Assembly: GCA_026224775.1 (NCBI GenBank)
Contig: JAMFRP010000011.1
Coordinates: forward strand, 1 to 64,000
Source: Bacteroidota bacterium
Lineage (GTDB): Bacteria; Bacteroidota; Bacteroidia; Sphingobacteriales; Sphingobacteriaceae
Direction of reading: 5' to 3'
DNA: 64,000 bases
Both the position numbers and the translations under genes were made by a program. Shown in pieces: positions 574-50,913 of the stretch. Position 1 is the first letter of the stretch; each line of letters opens with the position of its first letter. The notes under the pieces were generated by a model. That model was not told where the DNA came from. It worked only from the letters and a program-made list of their open reading frames with translations, and made no database searches.

Positions 574-620
574 TTATTAATGATTTTTTAAGAATTGGTT
601 AATGATTTGGATTTTATTTG
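574..620 (+). promoter_or_regulatory. Triple heptamer direct repeat (11-bp period) plus TTTG -7-like element
   Basis: TTATTAA-TGAT-TTTTTAA-GAAT-TGGTTAA at 574/585/596; TTTG at 617-620. Confidence 0.55.
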
Positions 621-3037: not shown

Positions 3038-3808
3038 TTATATTCCCTTTACTTCGCCACCATCCATTCTAACGGCTGTGCCGGTCATCCATTTTGCTGC
3101 CGATGATACCAGGAAGGCTATAAGTTCCGCGATTTCCTCCGGCTCCCCATAACGTTCAATGTGCGCATCCACCAAAAACTTTGCTTTCGCTTCATCCATG
3201 CTCATATGATTAGCTTCAGACCATTTTTTAAGAAACCCGATGCGGCGATTACTCATTACAGGCCCTGGCAATATACTGTTTACTTGAACACCGTCTATAA
3301 TTCCCTGTTCTGCAAATGCCTTTGCCAGAGCGACAATAGCAGCATTAATAGTAGCTACTGCGGCAAATCCCGGTTTAGGATCTTCAGCTGAATTTCCGGA
3401 AGTAAGGACTACTGATCCCTTGGATGCTTTCAAATAAGGCCATGCTTTGATGGTCAGGCGGCGTGCACCATGTAGCTTCATTTCTGCGCCGTCATTCCAT
3501 TGCTCATCAGTCATTTCAAATAGATGGATCTGTGGCACAGCACCGGCAATATTAACTACCGCGTTAATTTGCCCAAATTTTTCGATGGTTTTAGCAACAA
3601 CTTCATCTACTGCCGACACTTGCCTTAAATCGGCTGCTATAATCAGCGGTTCAGCACCGGCTGCTTTTACAGTTTTTGCTGTTACCTTTAATTCTTCTTC
3701 ACGACGGGCAACCAATACGATTCCTGAGAAATCTTTGGCCAGCCTGATAGCGGTTGCTGCACCAATACCAGCACTTGCTCCTGTTACAATTGCAATTGAA
3801 TTTTTCAT
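3038..3808 (-). CDS. SDR family oxidoreductase
   Basis: N-terminal TGASAGIG Rossmann motif, NIAGA, MDGG C-terminus. Confidence 0.93.
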   Translation of the reverse strand: MKNSIAIVTGASAGIGAATAIRLAKDFSGIVLVARREEELKVTAKTVKAAGAEPLIIAADLRQVSAVDEVVAKTIEKFGQINAVVNIAGAVPQIHLFEMTDEQWNDGAEMKLHGARRLTIKAWPYLKASKGSVVLTSGNSAEDPKPGFAAVATINAAIVALAKAFAEQGIIDGVQVNSILPGPVMSNRRIGFLKKWSEANHMSMDEAKAKFLVDAHIERYGEPEEIAELIAFLVSSAAKWMTGTAVRMDGGEVKGI

Positions 3809-3838
3809 AATTGATAATTAGTTTTTCTAAATACTGTT

Positions 3839-4450
3839 TTACATTTTTATTTTTAATCTCGGTGGCGCCGGTTTCAGATAGAAAAGCAATGCGCACCATA
3901 TCAAACCCAAGCTCCAAAGCGGCAGTCTAAAAGCAAGCAGCATAGCAATAATGAAAAGCCCGATGGTAAAAAATGACCGCATATTCATAATCCGCATGGT
4001 TTTCATGGTTATTCCTACAGATTGGTCGGTACATAACGCTTGCCATACCAAGATCAGATAAGTAATATTCACCATTAAAAAAATAGCCGCATAAATGAAT
4101 ACAGGAACCGGGGCCAGCCGGGTCTGCGCGATCCATGCTGTGGAAAATGGTACCAGAGATACGGAAAACAGCTGTGCGAAATTGCTCCAGATCAAAGGGA
4201 TTGTTGCGAGCTTGGCGTGCCTTAGCAAATAGTGATGGTTAACCCATGCGATGGCAACAAATAAATAACTTAACCCATAGCTTAATGCCGTGGGCCACAA
4301 CTTCCATAATTCCGAAAATGTTGGGTACTGAGGCGGTTTTAATAAAAAAACCATAATTGTAATAATTACTGCAAACACACCGTCTGAAAAGGCATTAAGT
4401 CTTTGCGGTGTAGCAAGGTCATCAGTTGTGTTTTTACTTTCACTTAACAT
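3839..4450 (-). CDS. TMEM175/DUF1211-family integral membrane protein
   Basis: RLNAFSDGVFAVIITIMVFLL signature and multiple TM segments; ATG at 4450 preferred over ORF start 4525. Confidence 0.85.
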   Translation of the reverse strand: MLSESKNTTDDLATPQRLNAFSDGVFAVIITIMVFLLKPPQYPTFSELWKLWPTALSYGLSYLFVAIAWVNHHYLLRHAKLATIPLIWSNFAQLFSVSLVPFSTAWIAQTRLAPVPVFIYAAIFLMVNITYLILVWQALCTDQSVGITMKTMRIMNMRSFFTIGLFIIAMLLAFRLPLWSLGLIWCALLFYLKPAPPRLKIKM

Positions 4451-4533
4451 ATAGATATGAATTAGTGTATTTATTATATTTATTATATTTTTCCGAGGCA
4501 TCAATAAACCATTTTCAGTATGCATTTTTTTTC

Positions 4534-4570
4534 TTTAGTGAGGCGATGCATTCGCAACCGCCTCACTAAA
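4534..4570 (-). terminator. Rho-independent terminator downstream of alpha/beta-hydrolase
   Basis: Perfect 12-bp arms TTTAGTGAGGCG/CGCCTCACTAAA followed on minus strand by T-rich tract. Confidence 0.75.
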
Positions 4571-4587
4571 GGAGGCTCTGAATTTTA

Positions 4588-5457
4588 TTATTTACGCAGC
4601 GTTGCTAAGAACGTAAGGATTTCTTCGCCGATCTCATTTACATGGGTTTCCAATGCGAAGTGACCTGTATCAAAAAACTTTACTATGGCATTTGGCAGGT
4701 CCTTTTTGAAAGCCTCAGCACCCGGCGGCAAAAAGAAAGGGTCCTTATCGCCCCAGACGGCTAATAAAGGCACTTGGCTTTCTTTAAAGTATTTATGGAA
4801 GGTGGGGTAAAGCGCTACATTGGTGGCATAATCTTTAAACAGATCAAGCTGAATTTCCCCATTTTCATCACGGTCAAGGAAAAATTGATCGAGTGAATAG
4901 GATTCCGGCGCTACAAGGCTCTTGTCACTTACACCGGTAAAATATTGCCATTGTGTTGTCTCTGCTGTTGACATCCCCTTTAGATTATTCCGGTTCTCCT
5001 CGGTTGGTTCGGCCCAATATTTTTGTATTGGCTCCCATCCGCCACTCAGCCCTTCTTCATAAGCATTACCGTTTTGTGAAATAATACCGGTGATCTTTTC
5101 AGGATTAGCTACAGCCAGCCTAAAGCCAACTGGAGCACCATAATCAAATACCTGAATGGCAAAACGTTTTAAACCTAATAGGTCTACAAAGCCCTGAATA
5201 TATTTTGTCAGGTTGTCGAATGTATAATTGAAGGATTTGTAATGAGGCGCGTCAGAAAAACCGAAACCGATAAGATCGGGGGCAATGACATGATATTTTT
5301 CGCTCAGGATAGGTATCAGGTTCCTGTACATGTGAGAAGATGTTGGATATCCATGTAATAAGAGTACCACAGGAGCATCTTTTTGTCCTGCTTCACGATA
5401 AAAAATGTTCAGGCCTTCTACCTGTACTTTGCGATAATTTACTGCTGATGTTTTCAT
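4588..5457 (-). CDS. Alpha/beta-hydrolase (haloalkane dehalogenase-like)
   Basis: LLHGYPTSSHMYRNLIP, VFDYGAPVG nucleophile-elbow region, DTGHFALETH; ATG at 5457 preferred. Confidence 0.88.
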   Translation of the reverse strand: MKTSAVNYRKVQVEGLNIFYREAGQKDAPVVLLLHGYPTSSHMYRNLIPILSEKYHVIAPDLIGFGFSDAPHYKSFNYTFDNLTKYIQGFVDLLGLKRFAIQVFDYGAPVGFRLAVANPEKITGIISQNGNAYEEGLSGGWEPIQKYWAEPTEENRNNLKGMSTAETTQWQYFTGVSDKSLVAPESYSLDQFFLDRDENGEIQLDLFKDYATNVALYPTFHKYFKESQVPLLAVWGDKDPFFLPPGAEAFKKDLPNAIVKFFDTGHFALETHVNEIGEEILTFLATLRK

Positions 5458-5491
5458 GATCTTGACAATTAATATTTGGTAGTGGATTAGT

Positions 5492-5523
5492 TTATTTAAA
5501 ACAGACAAGTATGTTTTAAATAA
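5492..5523. promoter_or_regulatory. Palindromic operator, probable TetR site
   Basis: TTATTTAAAACA-gacaagta-TGTTTTAAATAA, perfect 12-bp arms; core AAACAGACAAGTATGTTT. Confidence 0.75.
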
Positions 5524-5537
5524 GTTAAAAAATTAAG

Positions 5538-6404
5538 CTAATTTGCAGGCATTAAAAATGCCTTGATCCTCACGGCGATGCCTTCGTGGTGTTCCTCAAG
5601 TGCTAAATGACTGGTCTCATAAACATGTAATTCAGCGGAGGGCACGTCTTTTTTAATCGCCTCGGCGGCCGACAGCGGAAAAAAAACATCGTTCTTTCCC
5701 CATACCAAAAGTATCCGGGGTTGCTCCTCCTTCAGGAATTTCTGCCATTTGGGGTATTCTTCGATATTGGTTCGGTAATCATAAAGAAGGTCCAACTGAA
5801 TCTCTTCCTGACCAGGACGGCTTAAATAATATAAGGCGTTCAGATAACCATCCGGATTTATATTGGCTATATCTTTCGCACCATTCAGGAAGAATAACTT
5901 AATGCCCTCCAATGTCAACAAAGGCTTAACCAGTTTCTCAGTTTCTTCATGGCGATCTTGAAGGAAAGGCGCAGCATTATGCATTGCCGGCCCCAGGCCT
6001 TCTTCATACATATTAGAATTTTGAAGAATATAATTATTAAATAAATCCGGTCTTCTTGATGCGATGCGGAATGTTATTGGTCCACCATAGCCTAAAGCAT
6101 AAACATTAGGGTGAGTTAGCCCCATTTGGGCTATAAATTTTTCGATGCTTAAAGAAATATTATCAAATGTATAATCGAAGTTTTCTTTGTTGGGTATATC
6201 GCTGTTTCCGAAACCGGGGAAATCTGGTGCAACCAAATAAAAGTCTTCTTTCAGGTCATGAATCAATTCCTGGAAAGCACTGGATGCGTTAGGGATTCCA
6301 TTCAATAAAATAAGCTGTGGTTTGCTTTTATCACCTGCCTCCCTGTAAAAAATGTTGATCCCGTCAACATTTATTGTTTTGTAATAAATCGCTTGTTTTC
6401 TCAT
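5538..6404 (-). CDS. Alpha/beta-hydrolase, paralogue of 4588-5457
   Basis: INIFYREAGDKSKPQLILLNGIPNASSAFQELI; ETSHLALEEH. Confidence 0.87.
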   Translation of the reverse strand: MRKQAIYYKTINVDGINIFYREAGDKSKPQLILLNGIPNASSAFQELIHDLKEDFYLVAPDFPGFGNSDIPNKENFDYTFDNISLSIEKFIAQMGLTHPNVYALGYGGPITFRIASRRPDLFNNYILQNSNMYEEGLGPAMHNAAPFLQDRHEETEKLVKPLLTLEGIKLFFLNGAKDIANINPDGYLNALYYLSRPGQEEIQLDLLYDYRTNIEEYPKWQKFLKEEQPRILLVWGKNDVFFPLSAAEAIKKDVPSAELHVYETSHLALEEHHEGIAVRIKAFLMPAN

Positions 6405-6445
6405 TTTTCTTTTTGAATTATTGCTGTTTTTTAACCTTTAGTACA

Positions 6446-6463
6446 ATACAGATAGGTCTGTTT
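6446..6463. promoter_or_regulatory. Probable TetR operator
   Basis: ATACAGATAGGTCTGTTT matches AAACAGACAAGTCTGTTT at 15/18 positions with same half-site spacing. Confidence 0.65.
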
Positions 6464-6516
6464 TTTTAATTTTGTTGCTTATGATTTATTATTAATTACT
6501 ATATAAATTAGTTGGT

Positions 6517-7074
6517 TTATTTACTATCCAGGAGTTTTTTAGCTATGTTTCGCGCACTGATTACCGGCCAAACGTCATCATGTACCTTATTCGCGCTTAG
6601 AGCACCTTCAAATAGGATATACATTTCATCCGCCAGATCTTCTTTTCCAATTGGTTCCAGAATACGGGAAAACAATCTGCGCACGCCATTTTTTTGTTTT
6701 TTTATCTGTGTCCGTATCCGTTCATCTTCCTTGGGTATCTCTGAAATAATATTTAAGAAATTACAACCGTAATATTCTTTTTCTTGAACCAACTCAATCA
6801 GAAAATCGAAAATTGCCAATACCTTTTCTTTAGGATCAGAAAATTTGTCTGCGGCTCCCTTTAATGCCTCATCTGTAGCCAATCCCGAACTTTCCAGGTA
6901 AGTCATTAAAATATCTTCTTTCGAACGGAAACTAGTGTAAAGAGATGATTTGACAACCCCTGATTCTTCAACTATCTGATTAATACCCGTATTTCCATAT
7001 CCCTGTTTGTAAAATAAACGGGATGCAGTATCTACAATTGTTTGTTTGACGGCATTCTTTCTTTCGTTACGCAT
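6517..7074 (-). CDS. TetR/AcrR family transcriptional regulator
   Basis: IVDTASRLFYKQGYGNTGINQIVEESGVVKSSLYTSFRSKEDIL HTH; ATG at 7074 preferred. Confidence 0.93.
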   Translation of the reverse strand: MRNERKNAVKQTIVDTASRLFYKQGYGNTGINQIVEESGVVKSSLYTSFRSKEDILMTYLESSGLATDEALKGAADKFSDPKEKVLAIFDFLIELVQEKEYYGCNFLNIISEIPKEDERIRTQIKKQKNGVRRLFSRILEPIGKEDLADEMYILFEGALSANKVHDDVWPVISARNIAKKLLDSK

Positions 7075-7099
7075 AAGGCAAACATAAAATAAATTATTC

Positions 7100-7117
7100 A
7101 AACAGACAAGTCTGTTT
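7100..7117. promoter_or_regulatory. TetR operator (perfect palindrome)
   Basis: AAACAGAC-AA-GTCTGTTT about 25 nt upstream of tetR start. Confidence 0.8.
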
Positions 7118-7708: not shown

Positions 7709-10273
7709 ATGAATACCCGAGTCCTCAAAAAAGGTTATATACTCAGTTTGTTTTTTATTTTGCTTTTCTGCCAATTGGCCGATTGTCAATCTTTCGGACT
7801 TGGCTTTGCGGGATATGAAGCACATCAGGATAAAAGGACAAGCCTTGACTTAAGCCCGGAGAGAACCTTGTCTTTCGGAAATAATTTTGAGCTGTCATTT
7901 GATTTAGCCTTCCGTCCAAATTTCAGAACGTATTATGGCTATATCATAAGAATCATTGAAAATGGCAATAGAAATATTGATATCATCTATAATGATGCGC
8001 CCTTAGATCAAAAACATTTCAGGTTAATTATTGGGGATGCTTATTCAAAAATTGAATTTGAAATTCCAAGAGAAAGACTTTTCGGCCAATGGAACCATAT
8101 TCGGCTGAAATTTGATTTCGATAAGCAGTTATTGTCCCTATACTCAGGCAATAAAGTATATGCCCAATCAATTAATCTGAAAAAAAATAATAGTTATAAA
8201 TTTTTGTTCGGTGCAAGCAGTTACCATTCGTCTCAAATTATTGATGTACCTGCAATGATTATCAGCAATGTACGAATTGCGGAAAATGGTGCAATTAAAT
8301 ATAAATGGGAATTGAATGAATTTAACGGAAACATTGCCCACGAGGATGTAAAGCAGGCAAGTGCAGCAGTTAAAAATCCTATCTGGATGAAAGAAAAACA
8401 TTATGATTGGAACCTAACTAAAGATTTAACCTTAAATGGTGCGGTTGCTACAGCATTTGATCAAAAAAATGAGGCTATTTATATGGTCTCTAAAGATTCA
8501 GTATTTTGTTATCGGTTATCAAAAGATAGCCTGATCTCCAATGCCTGTCTTGATCGGCAATTCATGATCCAGGGTATGCAGTCGATATTCATACCCTATA
8601 AAAACAGTTTACTTGATATAAATGTAGACCGGAAACAGATTGCCCGCTTTGATTTTAACCGAAAGATATGGGATAAGAAATTGGATGACTCCTTGCTTAT
8701 GACGGGTTTTTATCATTACAATAAATTTTTCTCTGTAGCAGATACTTCATTATATATGATAGGCGGTTACGGCTATCACACGTTTAAAAACACAGTACAG
8801 TGCTATCATTTTTCATCCAAGCGATGGGAAATAGTTAAGGCAGGCGGTAGTTTTCTCGCCCCACATTATCTTTCAGCTTTGGGTACAACAAAATCAGGCG
8901 CTTATATTTTAGGCGGGTATGGCAGCAGGAATGGAGAGCAAGATCTAAATCCACGCTATTTTTATAGTTTGATATTTTTCAATATTAAAGATAGATCTTT
9001 TAAAAAAGTATATGATCTTAAGCTCCCTCCGTCAGACTTTGTATTTGCCAACTCTATGATAATAGATGAATCGGATAGCACATATTTTGCATTAATGTTC
9101 GATAAAGACAAATATGAATCGAAGCTTCAATTAATACATGGATCATTAAAAAAACCTGAGTTTAAAAAGCTCGGAAATTCGATACCGTATGATTTTGAGG
9201 ATATACATTCATTCGCGGATTTATTTTATAGTAAAGCAGATAACCGTTTTATTGCCGTTACCTTAAGTCACGGAACTAATGATAAATCAAAAGTAAATAT
9301 CTATACACTATACAGTCCAGCCATCACACTAATCGTCCCGATGATAACAATCGGCAACAAACCATCAAGCAATAATGTTATTTACCTAATTGTAGGTTTT
9401 ATAGTTATTTCTATTGTCTTTTTATTTTATAAAAGGACTTCAATATTTTTCCGATATGCCGATGCTATCGTGGACAGTGATATTGCTGATGGGGTTGCAA
9501 TAGTCGGTGAAAAAAAAGGGCAAAAGAAAATCAGGAACGCTATTTTTTTATTTGGTGACTTACAGGTTTTTGATGCTGATGGAAATGAACTAACGAAATT
9601 ATTTACTCCGCTGATTAAAGAATTATTCTTAATAATTATTATTTACAGCATACGCTGGGGCCGGGGTATAAGCTCCGAAAAACTTGAGGAACTTCTCTGG
9701 TCTGACAAGAGTTCGGACAGTGCCCAGAGTAATCGTTCTGTTAATATTGGGCGGTTAAAAAATATACTCTCAAAAATTGAAAATTGTACAGTTTCAAAAG
9801 AAAGTGGACACTGGAGAATTGACATTGACGATAATCATTTGACGGTGGACTACAAAAATTATCTTAGGCTGGCCCAAAATAAAAAGAGTATTACCAAAAA
9901 GGAAATATTAGACTTTACCAGCATTATTCGCAGAGGGGCTTTTTTATCCGATGTTGAATATGAATGGCTGGATGTTTTTAAGTCTGAGATCATGAACGAA
10001 ATTGTAGATATCTACCTGGAATTTTCCGCTTCGGTTAATCTGGCCGATGATCCCAAGTTTATGATACAACTGGCCAACTATATTTTCAATTTCGATCCCG
10101 TTAATGAAGAAGCCATGATGATCAAATGCAAAGCGCTCGCTCACCTTGGGAAACATTCACTTGCTAAAATTGCTTTTGAAAAATTTTCTAAGGAATATGA
10201 AATAATTTATGGTGAACGATTTAAAAAGAAGTTTCAGCATATTATGGACCCCGACACTGGTGTTCAATCTTAA
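7709..10273 (+). CDS. Membrane-anchored regulator: signal peptide, LamG-like, Kelch-like, TM, SARP/BTAD-like cytoplasmic domain
   Basis: TM NNVIYLIVGFIVISIVFLFYK; C-terminal AIFLFGDLQVFDADGNE...LEELLWSDKSSDSAQSNRSVNIGRLKNIL resembles SARP winged helix, then TPR/BTAD-like helices; ATG at 7709 preferred. Confidence 0.72.
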   Translation: MNTRVLKKGYILSLFFILLFCQLADCQSFGLGFAGYEAHQDKRTSLDLSPERTLSFGNNFELSFDLAFRPNFRTYYGYIIRIIENGNRNIDIIYNDAPLDQKHFRLIIGDAYSKIEFEIPRERLFGQWNHIRLKFDFDKQLLSLYSGNKVYAQSINLKKNNSYKFLFGASSYHSSQIIDVPAMIISNVRIAENGAIKYKWELNEFNGNIAHEDVKQASAAVKNPIWMKEKHYDWNLTKDLTLNGAVATAFDQKNEAIYMVSKDSVFCYRLSKDSLISNACLDRQFMIQGMQSIFIPYKNSLLDINVDRKQIARFDFNRKIWDKKLDDSLLMTGFYHYNKFFSVADTSLYMIGGYGYHTFKNTVQCYHFSSKRWEIVKAGGSFLAPHYLSALGTTKSGAYILGGYGSRNGEQDLNPRYFYSLIFFNIKDRSFKKVYDLKLPPSDFVFANSMIIDESDSTYFALMFDKDKYESKLQLIHGSLKKPEFKKLGNSIPYDFEDIHSFADLFYSKADNRFIAVTLSHGTNDKSKVNIYTLYSPAITLIVPMITIGNKPSSNNVIYLIVGFIVISIVFLFYKRTSIFFRYADAIVDSDIADGVAIVGEKKGQKKIRNAIFLFGDLQVFDADGNELTKLFTPLIKELFLIIIIYSIRWGRGISSEKLEELLWSDKSSDSAQSNRSVNIGRLKNILSKIENCTVSKESGHWRIDIDDNHLTVDYKNYLRLAQNKKSITKKEILDFTSIIRRGAFLSDVEYEWLDVFKSEIMNEIVDIYLEFSASVNLADDPKFMIQLANYIFNFDPVNEEAMMIKCKALAHLGKHSLAKIAFEKFSKEYEIIYGERFKKKFQHIMDPDTGVQS

Positions 10274-10628
10274 TACCTTCCGTTTTGTCTCAAAATCAGT
10301 ATTTTAATTCTATATAATTTCATTTTTTTAGGATTTTTTTAGGAAATTTTTATCCTTCCTCGAGACATTAGCTTTCATATAAGTTAATTATAAACCAATA
10401 ACATACTCATTTTGATATTAAAAAGCATTCCACAGCTTAAAATAGTTGGAGGGAGTAATGCCATTTCAGATCGAATATAAACTGCTGCTTAAAATTATAC
10501 CAGTGTTTAAAGCGAAATACTTATTTGAAACAAGTAGGGTTCCCCCTTAAGAGGAATGGTTAATGCGAGTCTGATGTTTCGTAAAAAGGTGATATCAATT
10601 AAAATAAACCAATTAAAATCTAAATAAA

Positions 10629-12170
10629 ATGAGAAAAAATTATTTTCTAACACTGTCTGCGCTGACAATGATCTGTATCGGCGGTTGTTCAAAAAATACG
10701 GCAATTGATGCAAAGTCCCCAAAACTTCTAAATACCGTATCAAAAACCTCTTCTTTTCCCTCCTCACCCGGCGACGTGGTAGGTAAGGTAACTGTTGGAT
10801 ACCAGGGATGGTTTCTAGCAGCCGGAGATGGTTCAAGTTTCAACTCTTTCCAACATACTGACCTGGAGTGCTGGCCGGATGTCAGGCAATACCCCACCAC
10901 TTACGGTAATGTTCAATTTAACCAGGATGGTGTATTACAACCTGGGTTCACAGGAACATTGGGTAACGGCCAACCTGCAAAGATGTTTTCAGACTGGGAT
11001 CAAAGTACAGTCAACGTGCATTTTTTATGGATGCAGCAGAATGGTATTGATTGCGCCGCTTTACAACGATTCGGTTCCCACTTCTCAGACCCGCGTGTGG
11101 TCAGCCAAGAAAATGGTGTAGCCGATAGGGTGCAAAGCGCAGCCCAAACTTATGGCCGAAAATTTTATATCATGTACGATATCAGCGGCTGGACTAATTT
11201 TCAAACAGAGTTGGAGCCAGACTGGACAAATACCATGCAGGCTCATACTACTTCCTCTGCCTATGCCAAGCAGAACGGAAAACCTGTGGTGTGCATCTGG
11301 GGAATCGGTGTATCTGGCAGGCCAGGAGATGTAACGTCATGGACAGCTCTAATTAACTGGTTCAAATCACAGGGTTGTTATGTCATTGTTGGGGTAAAAA
11401 CCGGTTTTGCCACTGATACAACCAATCTTGCTGCTTACAGTGCTGCAAATATGCTAATGGATTGGAGAGTGGGAGTAAACGCGTCGGCCAACTTTCAGGC
11501 GGATGATGCCGCGGCTTTAACCTTTTGTAATGCGCATGATATTGACTACCAGACCGATATTTATCCAGGCACATCTTTTTATAACGGTAATGGAACTGCT
11601 AAAAATATAATTCCTAGAAATCATGGAGATTTTATGTGGACACAATTCGCTGCAGCTAAAAACGCGGGAGTTCAAAGTGCATATATTTCTATGTTTGATG
11701 AGATCAATGAAGCTACGGGTATAATGAACTGTGCTGAAGATGCTTCTTCGATACCAGTTGGTAAATATTTTCTGACACTTGATTATGATGGTACACATGT
11801 ATCTTCCGATTATTATTTACGCTTAACAAACGATGGGGGTAAAATGATGAAAGGAACAATACCATATACTGCTACGGATCCAACACCTTTTGTTCTTACT
11901 CCGCCTGCCAGTCTTACCCCGCACGTGTTATCAAGCTCATCAATACAAGTCAACTGGTCGGCGGTGACGGATGCACCTTGTTTCAATATTAAAAGGTCAA
12001 CAACTACTGGAGGCCCTTATACGACGATATCATCAGGTATTACAGCCAATACGTTTACAGATACCGGGCTGACAGCCAATACAACTTATTACTATGTAGT
12101 TACAAGTGGTCGAATTAATGCGTCGGAAAGCATAATAAGCAGAGAAGTAAATGGCAAAACCAATCCTTAA
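10629..12170 (+). CDS. GH99/GH71-like lipoprotein with C-terminal FN3 domain
   Basis: Lipobox ICIGGC; VGKVTVGYQGWFLAAGDG, FDEINEATGI; FN3-like TPPASLTPHVLSSSSIQVNWSAV. Confidence 0.78.
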   Translation: MRKNYFLTLSALTMICIGGCSKNTAIDAKSPKLLNTVSKTSSFPSSPGDVVGKVTVGYQGWFLAAGDGSSFNSFQHTDLECWPDVRQYPTTYGNVQFNQDGVLQPGFTGTLGNGQPAKMFSDWDQSTVNVHFLWMQQNGIDCAALQRFGSHFSDPRVVSQENGVADRVQSAAQTYGRKFYIMYDISGWTNFQTELEPDWTNTMQAHTTSSAYAKQNGKPVVCIWGIGVSGRPGDVTSWTALINWFKSQGCYVIVGVKTGFATDTTNLAAYSAANMLMDWRVGVNASANFQADDAAALTFCNAHDIDYQTDIYPGTSFYNGNGTAKNIIPRNHGDFMWTQFAAAKNAGVQSAYISMFDEINEATGIMNCAEDASSIPVGKYFLTLDYDGTHVSSDYYLRLTNDGGKMMKGTIPYTATDPTPFVLTPPASLTPHVLSSSSIQVNWSAVTDAPCFNIKRSTTTGGPYTTISSGITANTFTDTGLTANTTYYYVVTSGRINASESIISREVNGKTNP

Positions 12171-15031: not shown

Positions 15032-15078
15032 CTGTTAAACATCTGTTAAGGTTTGCTTAAGGTTCATATATACCTTTA
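15032..15078 (+). promoter_or_regulatory. Triple heptamer box plus TAnnTTTA -7-like element
   Basis: CTGTTAA-ACAT-CTGTTAA-GGTT-TGCTTAA at 15032/15043/15054; TACCTTTA 15071-15078. Confidence 0.65.
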
Positions 15079-15107: not shown

Positions 15108-17927
15108 ATGAAGAGAACCAAACACTTCTGTTTACATTTACCGTTGATTTTTGCAACTGTGTTATTTTCATCAGCTGCGGCAGCGCAGTCGGGAAAGGAT
15201 GCTGCGCAATCGATCATTACCAAGATTGATACTTTCAATTTAAAAATGCCGGTTGAGAAACTTTATATCCAAACAGATAAGCCCTATTACGCTGTGGGGG
15301 ACACGATCTGGTTCAAAGCCTATCTTTGTAATGCATCACTTTCTTACTCACCGCTAAGCAGCCGTTTGTATGTCGAGTTGCTAAACGACAGCGGGAAAGT
15401 TGTCCAGCGGATGGCTGCCCCGATGGCATTAGGTATATCCTGGGGTGATATAGATCTATCGTCCTTCCGTGAAGGATCATATACCCTGAGGGCATATACC
15501 AATTGGATGCGTAATTTTAATAATGATTATTTTTTTCAGAAAGCCCTTTATATCGGGGATCCTCAAAAACAAAAATGGATCGCAAGTGAGCATAACGCTT
15601 TTAGTTCGGCATCACCGAATACAATAAAATTGGAAGTCCAGCTATCCAAAATAAATAGTCAACCCGAATCAGTAAGAGAACTTAAGTTGAGCCTATTGGA
15701 TGGGAAAAGAATAATCAATACTGGATCCGCACGGACTGGTATCTCTGGCGAATTTAACACGCAATTCAACCTGTCCGATCAAAAAGTTGTAAGAAACCTC
15801 TCGCTCCAGGTCGCCGATGCAAGTGACCCCAGTCAAAAAATAAATATACCGTTGGCCATCAACCGGTTAAGTGATATTGATCTGCAATTTATGCCAGAGG
15901 GGGGATATATGGTTGCGGGCCTGCCAAGTCATATCGGTTTTAAAGCGGTCGGCGAAGATGGCCGGGGAATCGATGTCAGCGGCAAGATCATCAACCTAAA
16001 AAACAATCAGGAGGTTACCGATCTTCAATCTGTTTACAAGGGATTGGGCACGATAGACCTCGCACCTGAGACCGGCGATATTTATGTCGCTAGGTTGTCC
16101 TCCGGAGGAGTGACACGTGACATCAAATTACCCGCAATAAAAATCTCTGGCTCTACGATCAGCGTGAGCAATCTGCTAACCCGCGATACGATGAATGTCC
16201 GTGTATTTCTTTCACCCGATCAGCTACAACCCGGTAAAAATCTTTATCTGGTCGGACAAAGCAGGGGCATTATTTGTTTTGCCGTCCCCGTATCAGGAGG
16301 GAAGACTTATACCAGCTTACGTGTCCCTAAAAACAATTTCCCAACTGGCATCGCACATCTTACTTTATTAAGCCCGGATTACAAACCGCTCAACGAACGT
16401 CTGGTTTATATTGACCACAAAGACAATTTAAAGATCGATGTTAGCGGTAACAACCAAAGGTACATGCCGCATGACAGTATCCCTATTCACATTAACGTAC
16501 AAACAGTAAAAGGAGAACCTGTTGTGGGCAGTTTTTCGGTAGCCGTCACCGATGACAGCCAGGTTAAAGCAGATAGTGTTGATGAAGATAATATTTTATC
16601 CCATTTATTAATCGCTTCAGATCTCAAAGGAAATGTTGAAAGTGCCGGTCATTATTTTTTAAATGATCCGGACGATTTAAGAGATTTAGACTGCCTTTTA
16701 TTGACTCAGGGTTGGGTGGGATACGATTGGCCAGCTATCGTGCAAGGGCCTCAAAACCCTGTTTTCCCAGCCGAATATCAATATATGGTCAGCGGAAAAG
16801 TCTCCAATCTGGTTGGTAAACCGATTGCTAATGCGGATGTTTTATTGCTCGCGACGGGTAAATATAAATTTGTTAAAGATACGACGACAAATGGTGAAGG
16901 ACGTTTTACTTTTAAAAACTTTGCCTTGGTTGACAGCGTGACCTTTGTCCTGGAGGCAAGAAACGCCAAACGCAAGGTGATCAGCGCAGGTATAAACATA
17001 GATGAGAAACAAGGCCCGGTGATCAATTTACAAAATCTGCCACGGGCGATGCCATGGAATGTAAATAGCTCGGCGCAAATGTTAAATTATATTAAAACAG
17101 ATTCGAGTTACCGCACACAATTGGAATATGCACAATATGGTGTAACGGGAAGAATGTTAAATACGGTTACAATCAGGGATAAGGCGATTATTAGAGGGTC
17201 TCAAAATCTAAATGGCGCTGGTGAGTCCGATCAGACGATAGACGAAGAAGCACTGGAAAAAGCCGATAAGATGAGCCTTACTCAGCTCTTGTTGCAAAAG
17301 ATAACAGGTTTCCGTATTGGTTTTAAAGCAAAAAGTACAGAACGTAATTTCTTTTTGAAAGATAAATCTGTTCACTTTGTGATCGACGGCATCGATATTA
17401 ATCGATTTTTTGAAGTGATCGATGGTGGCCCTCCTGAGCAACTCTATAACTATGACAAACAATACCTTGACTACTTTACAGCAGAAGATATTAAAGGCAT
17501 CGAGGTATTCTATTCGATAAAATATACCAATAACTATAATAACAAGAACCTGACCACGGATGAGTTACAAGCGGAGGCCCCAACAGGCAGCGGTGGCTTA
17601 ACCACTGCTACGATTGAGATCACGACCCGGTCGGGTAACGGCCCTTTTACCGAACATGCTAATGGCATCTTTGTTTATAAACCGATGTTCGTCACGCACG
17701 CAAAAGATTTTTACCGACCGCGTTACCAGAAGGGTGAAACACCAAAGTTCGGGGATCTCCGGTCTACCATCCATTGGCAGCCGTCTGTCGTTACTGCGAA
17801 AGATGGGACAGCGAATATTTCATTTTACGCGGCTGATAAACCGACAACTTATACAATTATCATACAAGGCACCGACTTCAAGGGTGATATAGGTTATAAA
17901 ATGGTTAAGGTAACGATCTCAAAATAA
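15108..17927 (+). CDS. Secreted MG2-domain protein with TonB-plug-like segment and no beta-barrel
   Basis: PVEKLYIQTDKPYYAVGDTIWFKAYL; later plug-like LTQLLLQKITGFRIG...VHFVIDGIDINRFFEVI...EDIKGIEVFY. Confidence 0.72.
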   Translation: MKRTKHFCLHLPLIFATVLFSSAAAAQSGKDAAQSIITKIDTFNLKMPVEKLYIQTDKPYYAVGDTIWFKAYLCNASLSYSPLSSRLYVELLNDSGKVVQRMAAPMALGISWGDIDLSSFREGSYTLRAYTNWMRNFNNDYFFQKALYIGDPQKQKWIASEHNAFSSASPNTIKLEVQLSKINSQPESVRELKLSLLDGKRIINTGSARTGISGEFNTQFNLSDQKVVRNLSLQVADASDPSQKINIPLAINRLSDIDLQFMPEGGYMVAGLPSHIGFKAVGEDGRGIDVSGKIINLKNNQEVTDLQSVYKGLGTIDLAPETGDIYVARLSSGGVTRDIKLPAIKISGSTISVSNLLTRDTMNVRVFLSPDQLQPGKNLYLVGQSRGIICFAVPVSGGKTYTSLRVPKNNFPTGIAHLTLLSPDYKPLNERLVYIDHKDNLKIDVSGNNQRYMPHDSIPIHINVQTVKGEPVVGSFSVAVTDDSQVKADSVDEDNILSHLLIASDLKGNVESAGHYFLNDPDDLRDLDCLLLTQGWVGYDWPAIVQGPQNPVFPAEYQYMVSGKVSNLVGKPIANADVLLLATGKYKFVKDTTTNGEGRFTFKNFALVDSVTFVLEARNAKRKVISAGINIDEKQGPVINLQNLPRAMPWNVNSSAQMLNYIKTDSSYRTQLEYAQYGVTGRMLNTVTIRDKAIIRGSQNLNGAGESDQTIDEEALEKADKMSLTQLLLQKITGFRIGFKAKSTERNFFLKDKSVHFVIDGIDINRFFEVIDGGPPEQLYNYDKQYLDYFTAEDIKGIEVFYSIKYTNNYNNKNLTTDELQAEAPTGSGGLTTATIEITTRSGNGPFTEHANGIFVYKPMFVTHAKDFYRPRYQKGETPKFGDLRSTIHWQPSVVTAKDGTANISFYAADKPTTYTIIIQGTDFKGDIGYKMVKVTISK

Positions 17928-18059: not shown

Positions 18060-20657
18060 TCAGACGCTTACGATCGCATGGAAATCCGATTTAAATTGTT
18101 CACCATAAAGATCTTTGAATTCTTTACTAAAATTTTCATAGGTGGATTTGGCCAGTGAATGTTTACCAAGAATGAAAAGAGCCCGGCATTTAATCATCAT
18201 TGCCTCTTCATTAACAGGATCAAAAACAAATATGGCATCAGCAATTTCGATGGCAAAATCAGGCTCATGTTCCACCTTGATGTGCTCGAGATAGTTTAAA
18301 TAGATATCGATCGCATCATTTGCAATATTTGCTTTTATTTGATCTAGCCACGGATAATCAACCCCATAGAGAAAGCTTCCCCTGGTAGTAATAGAGCAAA
18401 GTTCAGCGATTTGGTCTTTGGTAATACGCTTTTTATGTTCGAGAATCGCAAGAAACTCATGGAGATCGACATGCACCTTTTGAAAATCAATCTCCGTACG
18501 CCAATTGCCGGTGTCCTTTGACAGATGAATATGATCGAGGAAGTTCAACAGTGTTTTTAATTTCGAAAGGTTGGCGGAACGGTTATTACGTGCACTTTCG
18601 TCGGTTTTGTCAGCCCATAACAGTTCGATCAACTTATCCGGGCTGATGCCACTTTTTGATCGCAAGCTATAGATTATGATCACCAGAAAAAGCTCTTTAA
18701 CCAGCGCGGTAAAATTTCCAGTTATGTCTTTACCATTTTTATCCGTGATCTTTAGGTTACCAAAAAGATAGATCGCTGACCCACAAACCGCTGATAACCC
18801 ATTCTCTTCATCCTCACCTGTTAAAACTGGTTGCAGCATAGGAGGTACGTGTGCAACAGAGGAAGTTTTTTCGGTTTCCTTCCCGTGTGGTATAGACATC
18901 CTCTTTCTAAAACGCCAGAGGTATCCGGCAAGTGTGAAACAAATCAAACCAATAAGTACATAAATAATTGTCGCTAGATAATTAGTTTGAGTTGCTGAAA
19001 CAGTACGGTTTTCCGCAGGCCCCGATAAACTGTAAACCTGTATAAAGGAATCGTGATCATGCTCAGGTGCGCGATACATTGATACAGCGATGTATTGTTT
19101 GTCTTTTGTATTATAAAAAAGCTTTAAGAACGAGTGAGTATCATAAAAATCGAATGGTACCGGGTCGCCAAGCAGCTGATAATTGGGGTTGGTCAATGAA
19201 CCTGTTAGTAAGCGGAAGTTCGTGTTAAATTTTTGGTTTGAGTACACTAATACTGCATAAGTTTTGCTCCGCTCATCGATCAACATATTATTGCTGCAAA
19301 CAAAGCCATTTATTGGAACTTTTAAATCAAAGATTTTTTTAAAAGTCCTATTTTTAACATCAAAACGGATTAGGTCGTACATATTTCGCGCGTTCAGCAT
19401 CTGTTCCCCGGTAGTGCTGCCATAGCCACCCAGAAAATAAGCTATGTCGCCATGATTGGTTGTCCCGCAAGCAGATAGGTAACGCGGACAAAATTTATCT
19501 CCTTTCGTTATTATTTTTTCCCACTTGCTATTGCTCAAAGAACAACGAAACACCTCGTTTTTATAAGTCATCCGGCCGTATCCGCCGACTACATATATAG
19601 AAGTATCGCGTTCACAGGAAAAACTATTGGTTTGCCAATAATCGATCAAAGGCATTAACGAGGAGCTGACTGACCATTGATTAGTAAGCGTGTCATAATG
19701 CTCAAGTTGCTGATGCTCGTTATCAATATAATAATTATACAGCTTGTGTTTAAAAGGTACAAATATGCTTTCATTACTTGGTAACAAGTTAAATGACGTT
19801 TTATAAGTGATAACCTTGTCCGAATAATCAACAACAGATATCTGGTGCAGAGTATTTGTACCAATAAGATAAAGCCTATTGTTTACCTGATCAAAGGCTG
19901 CAGAAGTAATCCCGTCAAGATGAATGTTGTTTTCCAACAGCCAGTGCTGATGATCCTCTTTCATCCAATGTGGGTTATTGACCACCGCAGATTGGCCGGA
20001 CAGCGCTTCATGTGCAACATCTCCTGATTCTTCATCTAACGGCCATGAAAAATGTTTGGTGTTATCTTCAAAAATTGACACATTACGCAGCCTGAATGCC
20101 GAACAATCGCTAGTTTTGAAATCCGGATTATCACAAATTCCAAAAAACATTTTATAATGTCCTGTATGTACAAAATTAATATATTGTTGTCCTACATCTC
20201 GACCATTTACGATGACTATAACGGTATGATTGATGCAGTCAAACTTTAAAGAAACTTTATTCCAGCTATTATATAATTGTTGGGGCGGGATGACAAAATC
20301 AATGTTTGCATAACTTTCCCCAGCTACCAATCGGAAACGGTTATGAATTGAAGCCCCTTTAAGGATGAGCCGGTTATTATATACCAGGTCGATATTATGA
20401 CTTCCGGTTATTATCCGGCATATATAGCCAAAATAATCTGCCTTATTAGGAAGGAATGACATTTCAAAATTCAGATCAAATGTTTGCCTTCCCTGGAAAT
20501 CATCTCCTGGAAATAAATTCAAAGACGTTCGTTTGTCTGCGATGACTTCGTGACTCGCAAAACCCAATCCATAGTTTTGCGCAAAGCCTGGGGATATAAA
20601 AAGACAAACCAATCCCAATGTGATTAGCCATTTACAATAGTAGGATTGCGCTTTCAT
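18060..20657 (-). CDS. Second membrane-anchored LamG/Kelch/TM/SARP-like regulator, paralogue of 7709-10273
   Basis: Parallel segments YGLGFASHEVIADKRTSLNL, YVVGGYGRMTYKNEV, GGYGSTTGEQMLNARNMYDLIRFDVKNRTFKK, TM YLATIIYVLIGLICFTLAGYLW, AIYLFGNLKITDKNGK...LIELLWADKTDESARNNRSANLSKLKTLL. Confidence 0.72.
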   Translation of the reverse strand: MKAQSYYCKWLITLGLVCLFISPGFAQNYGLGFASHEVIADKRTSLNLFPGDDFQGRQTFDLNFEMSFLPNKADYFGYICRIITGSHNIDLVYNNRLILKGASIHNRFRLVAGESYANIDFVIPPQQLYNSWNKVSLKFDCINHTVIVIVNGRDVGQQYINFVHTGHYKMFFGICDNPDFKTSDCSAFRLRNVSIFEDNTKHFSWPLDEESGDVAHEALSGQSAVVNNPHWMKEDHQHWLLENNIHLDGITSAAFDQVNNRLYLIGTNTLHQISVVDYSDKVITYKTSFNLLPSNESIFVPFKHKLYNYYIDNEHQQLEHYDTLTNQWSVSSSLMPLIDYWQTNSFSCERDTSIYVVGGYGRMTYKNEVFRCSLSNSKWEKIITKGDKFCPRYLSACGTTNHGDIAYFLGGYGSTTGEQMLNARNMYDLIRFDVKNRTFKKIFDLKVPINGFVCSNNMLIDERSKTYAVLVYSNQKFNTNFRLLTGSLTNPNYQLLGDPVPFDFYDTHSFLKLFYNTKDKQYIAVSMYRAPEHDHDSFIQVYSLSGPAENRTVSATQTNYLATIIYVLIGLICFTLAGYLWRFRKRMSIPHGKETEKTSSVAHVPPMLQPVLTGEDEENGLSAVCGSAIYLFGNLKITDKNGKDITGNFTALVKELFLVIIIYSLRSKSGISPDKLIELLWADKTDESARNNRSANLSKLKTLLNFLDHIHLSKDTGNWRTEIDFQKVHVDLHEFLAILEHKKRITKDQIAELCSITTRGSFLYGVDYPWLDQIKANIANDAIDIYLNYLEHIKVEHEPDFAIEIADAIFVFDPVNEEAMMIKCRALFILGKHSLAKSTYENFSKEFKDLYGEQFKSDFHAIVSV

Positions 20658-21134: not shown

Positions 21135-21181
21135 CTGTTAAGATTTGCTTAAGGTTCTGTTAAGATTCAACGCTTATTTCG
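21135..21181 (+). promoter_or_regulatory. Triple heptamer box upstream of susC
   Basis: CTGTTAA-GATT-TGCTTAA-GGTT-CTGTTAA at 21135/21146/21157; TTATTTCG 21174-21181. Confidence 0.65.
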
Positions 21182-21227: not shown

Positions 21228-24200
21228 ATGAGAAAACTTTTATTATTCTTTTTGCTTTTATGGTCCTCGCTGGCCGTTAAAGCGCAAAACCACGTCGTCA
21301 AAGGTCAAGTTGTCGATGAACGCGGAGACCCTTTACCCGGCGCGACTGTTTCCGTAAAGGGTGCCGATCTTCACTCCGCTACCAGTATAGATGGTAAATT
21401 TTCCATCAATGTTCCGCCGCAGTCAAGTAACATTCTAGTCTTTACGTCTATCGGCTACGAACCATACGAAGCTGACGTGAAAGCAGTATTAGGCCCTGTA
21501 AATGTTAAAATGAAAACCAAAGCCAAAGAAATGGACGAGGTCGTTGTGGCGTTAAATCTGACACAGAAAAAAAGATCACTTGGTTTTGACCAGGTAGATG
21601 TCAATGTCAACCAAATGACGGAGGCAAGAGCAGCCAATATCACCGACCTTTTAGATGGCAAGGTTCCGGGCATGCAGTTGACAACCAGTGGTTACGCTAC
21701 AGGCTCAACACGCGTCACGCTCCGGGGTACTGCCTCTATCACCGGCGATAATCAACCGCTATGGGTGGTCGATGGTGTTCCGATCTATAACAACGATGGC
21801 CAAACGACCAACGGCAACACCAACACCGGTGCCGTGGATTATGGAAATGGCGCGTCGGCTTTAAACCCGGATGATATCCAGAGTATTGAAGTTTTAACAG
21901 GCCCGAATGCTGCTGCGTTATACGGTTCTGCGGCAGCAAACGGTGCGATCCTGGTCACTACCAAAAGAGGAAAAGCAGGGTCTGGTGTCGGCGTTAGCAT
22001 CAATGAAAATTACATGGCGTCCCGCGTTCTTCAATTCCCTGATTTTCAAAATATTTATGGAGAAGGGGGCAATAGTCAAAGTTCTGGTACAAGAAATCAG
22101 GCAGGTGTGCTTGAAGAAGGAACGGCCGGCGGTTCAAGCTATGGTGGCCCATTGCTTGGCCAGCCTATAATTGGTATAAACGGCCTGCCAACCACCTATA
22201 GTCCAAATCCGGATAACGTAAGCAGCCTGTACAAAACAGCGTATGCATTAACCCAGAATTTTGCAATATCAAACGCGACATCTACGCCGGGTTTGAACGG
22301 GCAACCCAACCTGAACACATCAATGCGAATCTCTTTTACCCGTGTTGATGCAAATGATGTGATTGATAAACAGGATTTACAAACAAAAAATAACCTTTCA
22401 TTTAATGTATCGAAAGATTTCACTAATTTTCTAACGATCGATACGCGCATGCAATACCTGCAGCAAACGGTACAAAATCGTCCGCAACGGAACGAAGACC
22501 CAAACAACATCCTAAACGTATATAATCATCTTCCGCGTGATGAATCCATCGCTTCTATGCAACCTTATATGGATGTAACGGGCAACGAGCTATCCAATGG
22601 TTCAACAGGCTTGGATAATCCGTATTGGATCATCAATGAAAATTATAATAAAGACATTACTAATACGATCATTGGTGGTATTGGGGCTACAGCAAAGCTT
22701 TTGCCGGGGTTAAGTTTCCGTGGACAAGTTTCTGCCAACTTAATATGGGGTAGCCGGGATTACTTCCTTCAAAAAGGTGCCGTAAACGCCCAAGGTAAGT
22801 TGGGCTATTTCAGTGAGTTCAGCCAAAATAATCAAAACTGGCAGACAGATGGTTTGTTTATATATAACAAACAATTCAACAAATTTAGTCTGAACGCCAA
22901 TCTGGGCACAAGCGTCCGAAAGTTGGATAATTATAACCAAACATCTACCATTACGTCTTTACTTGCCCATAGTGTAATGAGCCTGGCGAACAATGCTAGT
23001 GTTCCGCAAGCCGTTGAGGCATATGGTAATTCTCAAATCAACTCTGTTTATGGTACACTTACAGCTGGTTATAAAGATTATTTATTTCTTGAACTGACAG
23101 GGCGGAACGACTGGACGTCGACGTTGTCACAGGCCAACAATTCATACTTTTACCCGTCAGCAAGCGCCAGCTTTATATTTACCGACGTCCTGAAGATTCC
23201 TGATAATATTTTGAGTTTTGGTAAACTACGCGCATCAATTGCGGAGGTAGGTAACAGTACATCACCCTATAATCTGATCAATGAATTTAATTATGTAAAT
23301 TCGTTTAACGGCCAACCGTTGGTGACTTTTGATAACACGCTTAAGACTCCGAGCTTGAAACCAGAGCAAACGGTTTCAATCGAACTGGGGACCGAACTGC
23401 GATTTTTCAAGGATAGGCTGTCTTTAGACGCTTCCGTATATCAAAAGAATACAACAAATCAAATTATTTCGGGAGCCATTTCAAATGCCAGTTATTTTAG
23501 CTCAAAAATCATCAATGCGGGAAGTGTGTCTAACAAAGGGATTGATCTTGCGCTAAGCGGCACCCCAATCCAAACCACAAACTTCAGTTGGGGCGTCAAT
23601 GTGAATTTCGGTATGAACCGGAATAGGGTTAATTCACTTATCCCCGGTTTGACAACTTTCAACATTGGCAGCGCCTTGCTAACAAATGTTAATGCTGAGG
23701 TTGGTCAGCCGATTGGTGTTTTACGAGCTGAAGACTGGCTGAAAGATGCACAGGGTAACGTGATTATCAACCCGACAAATGGTTTGCCTTATAGCGGAAG
23801 TACGCCGGGTACCGTTGACGGGAAAGCACAGACAATCATCGGGAACTATCAACCAAAGTCATTGGAGTCGTTTGGATCAACATTTACCTATAAACAATTT
23901 GACTTTAATTTCCTGTTAAACGCCCGTATGGGTGGCCAGATATTTTCGGCAACACAATACCGTGCGGATGTTGCTGGTGTGACACAGCAAACACTTCCGG
24001 GGCGTGATGCCTACGAACAATCGGCAATCGTTTACGGTGAAGCCGGGCTTCCGGTTACCAACGGCATTACAACCGTATACGGTTTACCTTATCCGGATGC
24101 CGGGCGCGCTAAAGGACCGATATTTCAGGGGTACTACCCGGAAACAGACAAAAATGGAAATATCGTTTATGATAAAAATGGTTTGCCGATCGCCGATAAA

Positions 24201-24527
24201 TCAAAACCAAATACTTATTACCTTAATTCCAATGTTTACTTTGTGCGATTTAATCATATCAGCAGCTTGTTGACATTTGACGATTCGTTTATCAAATTAT
24301 CCCAGGTGATCATTGGTTATAACCTGCCAAAGCGTTATCTGAGTCATACTGTCTTTAAATCAGCAAGATTCTCGCTTGTTGGACGCGACTTGTGGACAAT
24401 ATTACAGCATACTCCACGTGGCATAGATCCCGAATCAGCCTATTCGTCCGGTAATGCGCAAGGTCTTGAAGAGGGTGGTGCGTTACCTTATTGCAGCTAC
24501 GGCGTTGACATAAAATTATCATTATAA
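21228..24527 (+). CDS. susC-like: SusC/RagA-family TonB-linked outer membrane receptor
   Basis: Carboxypeptidase-like N-domain GQVVDERGDPLPGATVSVKG, plug VTLRGTASITGDNQPLWVVDGVPI, GPNAAALYGSAAANGAILVTTKRG. Confidence 0.97.
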   Translation: MRKLLLFFLLLWSSLAVKAQNHVVKGQVVDERGDPLPGATVSVKGADLHSATSIDGKFSINVPPQSSNILVFTSIGYEPYEADVKAVLGPVNVKMKTKAKEMDEVVVALNLTQKKRSLGFDQVDVNVNQMTEARAANITDLLDGKVPGMQLTTSGYATGSTRVTLRGTASITGDNQPLWVVDGVPIYNNDGQTTNGNTNTGAVDYGNGASALNPDDIQSIEVLTGPNAAALYGSAAANGAILVTTKRGKAGSGVGVSINENYMASRVLQFPDFQNIYGEGGNSQSSGTRNQAGVLEEGTAGGSSYGGPLLGQPIIGINGLPTTYSPNPDNVSSLYKTAYALTQNFAISNATSTPGLNGQPNLNTSMRISFTRVDANDVIDKQDLQTKNNLSFNVSKDFTNFLTIDTRMQYLQQTVQNRPQRNEDPNNILNVYNHLPRDESIASMQPYMDVTGNELSNGSTGLDNPYWIINENYNKDITNTIIGGIGATAKLLPGLSFRGQVSANLIWGSRDYFLQKGAVNAQGKLGYFSEFSQNNQNWQTDGLFIYNKQFNKFSLNANLGTSVRKLDNYNQTSTITSLLAHSVMSLANNASVPQAVEAYGNSQINSVYGTLTAGYKDYLFLELTGRNDWTSTLSQANNSYFYPSASASFIFTDVLKIPDNILSFGKLRASIAEVGNSTSPYNLINEFNYVNSFNGQPLVTFDNTLKTPSLKPEQTVSIELGTELRFFKDRLSLDASVYQKNTTNQIISGAISNASYFSSKIINAGSVSNKGIDLALSGTPIQTTNFSWGVNVNFGMNRNRVNSLIPGLTTFNIGSALLTNVNAEVGQPIGVLRAEDWLKDAQGNVIINPTNGLPYSGSTPGTVDGKAQTIIGNYQPKSLESFGSTFTYKQFDFNFLLNARMGGQIFSATQYRADVAGVTQQTLPGRDAYEQSAIVYGEAGLPVTNGITTVYGLPYPDAGRAKGPIFQGYYPETDKNGNIVYDKNGLPIADKSKPNTYYLNSNVYFVRFNHISSLLTFDDSFIKLSQVIIGYNLPKRYLSHTVFKSARFSLVGRDLWTILQHTPRGIDPESAYSSGNAQGLEEGGALPYCSYGVDIKLSL

Positions 24528-29844: not shown

Positions 29845-29857
29845 CTTTAAAACACAT

Positions 29858-37574: not shown

Positions 37575-37770
37575 GAGAATACCAACCCATTTTACAAATT
37601 AATAGAGACGCCAGCACCTATAGTCTCTGTAAAAGCCACGCTTACAAAACTTGTAATCAAATCGACATTGGTATATGATTTGGCAACCAAACCGGGTCAG
37701 ACGTATAATTTGTATGCACGGTGACCGGCATAGCCCATATAAACGAAATAAAAATATAAAAGATGATCCT

Positions 37771-38904: not shown

Positions 38905-39053
38905 CTTAATATCTTTTAGTTTATTGTTTACATAACGGGCCATGTCATCCACGGCCCATTTTATTTTCAGCACGCCTATCCAGCAAAGACCAAAAGCGCT
39001 CTGGATTACAGCAAGTCTGCCGCATTCCTTTAAGTGCCGGAATCAGGTATACA

Positions 39054-39189
39054 ATTGCTGGTTGGGCGCCGCAATTATATGACTACAGGTCTGCGTTATG
39101 AAGGTACGGCAAAGTTTGACCAAAATGATAATAGCAGTAAATTGAGCATATTGGACTTGCGTGTTGCTTTCGCTTTTGAGGCAAAATAA
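39054..39189 (+). pseudogene. C-terminal tail of a lost outer-membrane beta-barrel-like protein
   Basis: GRRNYMTTGLRYEGTAKFDQNDNSSKLSILDLRVAFAFEAK*. Confidence 0.5.
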
Positions 39190-39239
39190 AGAAAGATTTT
39201 AAATTTAAAATATTTGACTTATAAGAAGATTGTACCGGT

Positions 39240-39285
39240 TTGTTAATGTTTTATTAAATAGCTGTTAGGACTATCCGCTACATTT
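39240..39285 (+). promoter_or_regulatory. Triple heptamer box plus perfect TAnnTTTG
   Basis: TTGTTAA-TGTT-TTATTAA-ATAG-CTGTTAG at 39240/39251/39262; TACATTTG 39278-39285. Confidence 0.6.
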
Positions 39286-39292
39286 GTCGGAT

Positions 39293-50866: not shown

Positions 50867-50913
50867 CAAATTACCTGTGATCTCTTAATCATTGTTTAAT
50901 AATTCCTTAATTG
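50867..50913 (-). promoter_or_regulatory. Triple heptamer box plus TTTG, minus strand
   Basis: Minus strand: CAATTAA-GGAA-TTATTAA-ACAA-TGATTAA, then TTTG at 50870-50867. Confidence 0.6.

Follow-up and report, generated by a model that had tools for sequence, protein, structure and literature searches.

The 64,000-nucleotide window (the whole stretch of DNA that was analysed) carries at positions 7709–10273 of the plus strand a gene for a protein of 854 amino acid residues, regulator 1, which is probably a membrane-anchored one-component transcription activator of polysaccharide-locus (PUL) genes. The fold and topology of the protein, its association with PULs, the operator geometry and two operator types matching two regulator subgroups were computed, and from these we infer DNA binding, activation, a ligand and transmembrane signalling.

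Domain architecture, topology and fold

The open reading frame begins with an ATG at 7709 and ends with a stop codon at 10273, and its domain order was obtained from Pfam, AlphaFold2 and Foldseek. The full-length AlphaFold2 model, computed with 48 relatives, had a mean pLDDT of 88.5 and showed a signal helix (residues 3–21), a sandwich to about residue 225, a propeller to about residue 540, a transmembrane (TM) helix at residues 555–576, a disordered linker and a mixed domain at residues 611–850. On the plus strand these parts correspond to a signal peptide with a cleavage region near residue 26 (7709–7786), a LamG/ConA-like β-sandwich of about residues 28–225 (7790–8383), a Kelch β-propeller of about residues 234–540 (8408–9328), the single TM helix (9371–9436), a flexible cytoplasmic linker of residues 577–610 with pLDDT below 50 at residues 576–605 (9437–9538), and a SARP domain consisting of a winged helix (residues 611–706) and a helical BTA-like part (residues 714–850) (9539–10258).

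The position of the reading frame and the Kelch motifs given by the initial annotation were both borne out: Kelch_6 scored above the Pfam cut-off in regulator 1, and a Foldseek search of the propeller gave 471 PDB matches at E ≤ 0.001, with Kelch propellers the best. The LamG-like N-terminus proposed in the same annotation agrees with the modelled β-sandwich; by sequence the likeness was weak, Laminin_G_3 being matched by one of 18 members at 1.8 × 10−5, and a PDB profile search with the N-terminal domain gave nothing useful. Single-protein sequence searches of Pfam, NCBIfam and PDB returned Kelch only, the NCBIfam scan of regulator 1 being empty.

A strong TM segment (hydropathy at least 1.6) was found at the matching place, the junction of the Kelch and SARP parts, in 84 of 86 relatives, and a second TM-like stretch was found in none of the 86, in agreement with the single segment noted earlier. 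The N-terminus was hydrophobic in 82 relatives and the K/R content was higher after the TM segment than before it in 85, which indicates an N-out/C-in orientation. As predicted from these sequences, the sensor part is outside the inner membrane and the C-terminal domain inside. The linker between the TM segment and the SARP domain has a median length of 47 residues in the family (range 32–92).

A single TM segment with a disordered juxtamembrane linker would also suit regulated proteolysis, a common bacterial route in its intramembrane form, in which a signal would cause the SARP domain to be cleaved off and to activate transcription in soluble form from the same operators. SusR, CadC and ToxR act while anchored, and neither a partner protease nor a conserved cleavage motif happened to be noticed in the neighbourhoods inspected; release from the membrane is considered unlikely and an activator that stays anchored is preferred.

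The C-terminal domain alone (about 240 residues) was modelled at a pLDDT of 91.8 using AlphaFold2 with 46 relatives, and showed two β-strands, a helix-turn-helix and a wing followed by helices. Foldseek matched this model to six PDB chains at E ≤ 0.001, all of them AfsR or EmbR, both SARPs of solved structure (E 6 × 10−7 to 1 × 10−5, TM-score 0.63–0.70), the next match being at 0.1. In addition, hhalign against soluble Bacteroidota SARPs gave a probability of 99.2% over 231 columns with both parts covered, and a bridge profile of Bacteroidota SARPs matched AfsR at 6 × 10−16. The SARP-like output domain suggested by the initial annotation is therefore upheld, and in the model the region after the TM helix has the SARP fold, an OmpR-type winged helix with a helical BTA part.

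No Pfam or NCBIfam model matched the C-terminal domain. Pfam BTAD gave no match in the own genome and Trans_reg_C matched two of 46 members, with a best E of 0.037. Because Pfam BTAD misses the domain it is unannotated. By this criterion, which concerns annotation and not mechanism, the proteins were filed as a distant SARP-like group and not as canonical SARPs. A Pfam BTAD search of Bacteroidota retrieved soluble SARPs of other architecture; at three loci (L096, L130, L132) soluble proteins were seen by eye to combine an N-terminal SARP with an adenylate-cyclase/TPR-like C-terminal part.

Distribution and polysaccharide-locus context

A paralogue of the same architecture, regulator 2 (18060–20657, minus strand; 39–41% identical), is directly divergent from susC and was absent from the initial annotation. 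The genome contains four copies, namely the two regulators of the window, one at C37 and one at C56 (25% identity). A two-peptide scan of GTDB genomes confirmed 203 loci, of which 79 were fetched; these encoded relatives and the four copies in one genome confirm that the initial observation goes beyond chance. The family occurs in Mucilaginibacter, Pedobacter, Dyadobacter, Hufsiella, Chitinophaga, Parapedobacter, Sphingobacterium, Segetibacter, Puia and others; judging by the nearest named relatives, the host of the window is probably a Mucilaginibacter-like bacterium. The regulator was present in 32 of 61 genomes of a genus sample, and the profile was matched in 14 of 396 genomes of a phylum sample, three of these being weak matches to ordinary soluble SARPs. 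No description of the LamG/Kelch-TM-SARP architecture was found in the literature searched, and the family is widespread and apparently undescribed. Tandem pairs of a full-length regulator and a shorter relative were observed at L128, L134, L136, L125 and L135 (phylum genomes G244, G432 and G362); the shorter partner is either a LamG-TM-SARP protein of 685 residues without Kelch repeats or a soluble SARP of 277 residues without a TM segment.

A survey of the genes beside the regulators found a SusC/D or PUL hydrolase gene within 9.9 kb in all 37 non-redundant neighbourhoods (regulators <72% identical, at least 20 kb of sequence each). SusC was found in 27, GH99-like proteins in 24, GH92 in 22 and GH95 in eight of them. 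The neighbours were labelled with iterated profiles, most of whose seeds were window genes; when 76 neighbours were scanned directly with Pfam, the labels agreed for GH92, GH99, SusC and SusD. With 15 GH92 genes and some 60 SusD genes in the 5.4 Mb of the own genome, about 6% and 20%, respectively, are estimated to be expected by chance. The presence of GH92 across the genus, considered as a further signal, was uninformative, as it was found in 61 of 61 genomes.

The PUL of the window contains two GH92, one GH2, two GH95, one GH88 and one PL8 gene together with genes for CE2-like esterases and GH99-like enzymes. On the plus strand, a GH95-like glycoside hydrolase gene (645–2915, ATG at 660; with a predicted operator upstream) is a predicted target, and a gene for a GH99-like secreted protein (10629–12170; assigned by an iterated profile, with no Pfam match of its own) adjoins regulator 1. 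They are followed by a gene for a 939-residue secreted MG2/CarboxypepD_reg-like protein (15108–17927, predicted target), a susC-like TonB-dependent transporter gene (21228–24527, predicted target), a susD-like gene (24532–26280; SusD-like_2), GH92 and GH2 genes (27568–33223) and GH95, GH88 and PL8 genes (35175–41353). A GH99-like enzyme with a RicinB domain, encoded on the minus strand (49095–50837), is also a predicted target. The minus-strand block of unrelated genes at 3038–7101, located between the GH95-like gene with its operator and regulator 1, was read by eye as an SDR, a small membrane protein, two alpha/beta hydrolases and a TetR-like protein, and may be an insertion.

From this enzyme set an α-mannose-rich, acidic, acetylated glycan is a plausible target of the PUL, and the periplasmic LamG-like and Kelch domains would sense oligosaccharides of the α-mannose-rich glycan after SusC/D import. 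A variant that differs in the ligand only, with a protein (SusC/SusD or another PUL lipoprotein) sensed instead of the glycan, has a smaller yet appreciable chance of being correct: proteins or peptides are the ligands of most solved Kelch propellers that were retrieved (KLHDC2, LZTR1, Keap1), and anti-sigma systems sense SusC, whereas LamG/ConA-like folds often bind carbohydrate and some of the 37 neighbourhoods had no susC within 10 kb.

Predicted operators of the two regulator subgroups

One-turn direct repeats were first suggested by reading the susC promoters. In a sequence-blind test, which scored triple repeats of any 9-mer at each period from 7 to 18, period 11 gave 30 high scores in 152 regulator-adjacent intergenic regions and each other period 0–5. 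For the non-redundant set the figure at period 11 was 12 of 65 (shuffle mean 0.45, maximum 3). The boxes at this period read TTAAK-N6-TTAAK-N6-TTAAK. The Bacteroidota −7 box is TAnnTTTG (PMC9723704), and TTTG peaked 12–14 bp past the last box, at 63 of 157 sites (26 of 73 non-redundant). The TA half of the −7 box was poorly conserved at the repeat sites, as is expected of activator-dependent promoters.

The composite of repeats and TTTG occurred 67 times in 1.79 Mb, never within coding sequence and at a median of 55 bp before the start codon; the same pattern read backwards did not occur in the 1.79 Mb. It preceded genes for GH92 (20), GH95 (16), GH99-like proteins (9) and susC (7). With up to one mismatch allowed, the window had eight matches against 0.27 expected, a number reached in none of 100 shuffles. 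Predicted operators were located at 577–620 (plus strand; TTAAT-N6-TTAAG-N6-TTAAT-N13-TTTG) before the GH95-like gene, at 15035–15078 (plus; with TTAAA as one box and TTTA after N13) before the gene that starts at 15108, at 21138–21181 (plus; three TTAAG boxes, N13 then TTTC) before susC, and at 50867–50910 (minus; N13 then TTTG) before the GH99-like gene. In all four promoter sites (577, 15035, 21138 and, on the minus strand, 50910) TTT stands at exactly 13 bp. The operator before the gene of the 939-residue protein suggests for the latter a role in the same glycan pathway. The canonical TTAA operators nearest to regulator 1 are those at 577 and 15035, none being directly adjacent to it. An AT-rich triple repeat of 11-bp pitch with TTTTAGG boxes, at 10322–10354 between regulator 1 and the GH99-like gene, was not counted as an operator despite its high period score, because it has neither a TTAA core nor a correctly placed TTTG.

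In the genus sample, genomes carrying the main regulator subgroup had 1.00 sites per Mb versus 0.35 in those without this subgroup (Mann–Whitney p = 2 × 10−5), and genomes with the divergent subgroup only had 0.21 main-type sites per Mb; the backwards control pattern showed no significant difference in density (p = 0.16). Summed from the table, the composite was present at 77 sites in main-subgroup genomes, with 2 for the control, and at 25 sites, with 8 for the control, in genomes without the subgroup, where sites are present at background level; in the own genome 10 exact sites were counted, and 1 for the control. Fifteen genomes had 87 sites in total; 28 of these were no more than 10 kb from a regulator and 15 no more than 1 kb, where 0.7 and 0.14, respectively, would be expected. 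The loci that yielded the pattern overlap in part with the genus genomes. Related genomes share sites by descent, so these counts are not independent. The likely DNA target, as read from the sequences, consists of three short direct repeats that closely precede the promoter and are spaced by one helical turn.

Exact TTAAK triple repeats were also seen far from any regulator in genome G000 (C57:69670–69696, L144; C16:64876, L141; C27:19701, L142; C58:14924, L145), one of them immediately upstream of a gene of susC size that has a SusD gene behind it. As far as sequence goes, the regulon may extend beyond the local PUL.

In the divergent subgroup the boxes TTAACCC, TTAACCC and TTAATAC, at a pitch of 12 bp and followed by a TAnnnTTG-like box, were found in 17 of 21 loci. 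Among held-out loci of other phylum families, 12-bp TTAACCC repeats lie beside the regulator in L122, L123, L125/L135 and L126, and L127 has a variant of this repeat; L120, of the main type, has 11-bp TTAAT repeats, and four other held-out loci showed no clear repeat of this kind. The strict form TTAAYCC-N5-TTAACCC-N5-TTAA occurred in five of 396 phylum genomes (G000, G044, G186, G362 and G443); four of the five have the regulator, and in all four the site is within about 200 bp of its 3′ end. The loose form TTAAYC-N6-TTAACC-N6-TTAA was noisy (19 of 396 genomes, four of them with a Kelch-SARP regulator) and was set aside, specificity being confined to the strict form. At L048 (3706–3738) a CCGAACA triple repeat of 11-bp pitch was noted just after a divergent regulator, possibly another specificity.

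Some predicted sites have no regulator gene anywhere near them and might be bound by another factor; the 11- and 12-bp repeats would then belong to a different regulator of the same PULs and the SARP domain would have some other role, such as tethering or protein interaction. Sites nevertheless adjoin regulator genes, their density across the genus follows the presence of the regulator, and their geometry is that of SARP operators. The best argument that the LamG/Kelch-SARP protein reads the site is that the two regulator subgroups differ in both the pitch and the sequence of their repeats (11-bp TTAAK or 12-bp TTAACCC). We consider it highly improbable that another factor does so, and keep to recognition by the regulator itself.

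Proposed mechanism and comparison with known systems

A signal from the periplasmic domains would pass through the single TM helix and promote DNA binding by the cytoplasmic SARP domains, which may sit side by side, head to tail, on the three TTAA-cored direct repeats. The flexible linker of 32–92 residues would let membrane-anchored protomers bind DNA in this arrangement. As the last of the three repeats occupies the −33 region, with 13 bp between it and the TTTG of the −7 box, the SARP domain would recruit RNA polymerase without a proper −33 element, as in AfsR. The geometry is nearly that of actinobacterial SARPs, which makes activation at promoters of this kind the likely mode.

SARPs have been known mainly from Actinobacteria, as soluble proteins that activate antibiotic clusters. 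If the mechanism is correct, their fold and operator geometry, wired here to a periplasmic sensor, would link antibiotic-cluster activators and PULs. On balance, we favour the view that LamG/Kelch-SARP proteins form a further class of PUL signalling besides SusR, HTCS and ECF/anti-sigma systems, with two main subgroups of 11- and 12-bp pitch, head-to-tail binding while anchored and a regulon that would be readable from sequence. Such a class would be one missed by Pfam-based surveys of transmembrane regulators; a survey of these does not mention BTAD (PMC10269533). With the operator explicit, regulons and candidate substrates would be predictable genome by genome, α-mannan-rich glycans being the candidates from the GH92/GH99 association, and the family would offer a clean system for the binding of direct-repeat DNA by a membrane-anchored protein.

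Actinobacterial SARPs recognize direct repeats with an 11-bp pitch, of which the last is 8 bp away from the −10 box, and AfsR binds as a side-by-side dimer that overlaps the −35 element and contacts sigma region 4 (PMC10936776); the PimR operator has three heptamers separated by 4-bp spacers (PMC5930380). The present proteins share with the actinobacterial SARPs AfsR, EmbR, PimR and DnrI the OmpR-type winged helix followed by a helical BTA domain and, in silico, an 11-bp direct-repeat operator whose last repeat is next to the −10/−7 box, the three repeats being found also for PimR. The typical SARP is soluble with the domain N-terminal, whereas here, in Bacteroidota, it is C-terminal, after one TM helix and periplasmic LamG/Kelch domains; the boxes are AT-rich and TTAA-cored, one subgroup has a 12-bp pitch, and Pfam BTAD is not matched.

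ToxR and CadC are likewise one-component membrane-anchored winged-helix regulators, but their DNA-binding domain is N-terminal and their sensor C-terminal, the inverse of the order found here, where a BTA part is also present. HTCS proteins resemble the family in the periplasmic sensor, the PUL location and the DNA-binding output in one polypeptide; they differ in sensor fold, and the Pfam scan of regulator 1, with Kelch and chance-level matches only, found no kinase, receiver or AraC domain. The ECF sigma/anti-sigma (FecR-type) systems of PULs also signal from periplasm to cytoplasm through a single TM segment, whereas here the output is a SARP instead of a sigma-binding domain, and the Pfam scan found no FecR domain.

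A similar layout is that of SusR of Bacteroides, in which a periplasmic sensor is joined through a TM segment to a cytoplasmic DNA-binding domain reported to be unlike any known transcription factor, with a predicted motif of two boxes 67 or 77 bp apart (PMC3878776). By prediction the present family shares with it the one-component membrane protein, the periplasmic sensor, the C-terminal cytoplasmic DNA-binding domain and the place beside susC/susD; it is set apart from SusR, as described, by the SARP domain and by repeats of 11 or 12 bp instead of 67 or 77. In proposing a different class of PUL regulator the initial annotation went too far on one point: one-component transmembrane regulation of PULs is not new, being already that of SusR (PMC3878776), whereas the SARP output, the LamG/Kelch sensor and the operator type appear to be new. 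We regard the LamG/Kelch-SARP regulator as combining the layout of SusR with a predicted SARP-type mode of DNA recognition and an unusual sensor.
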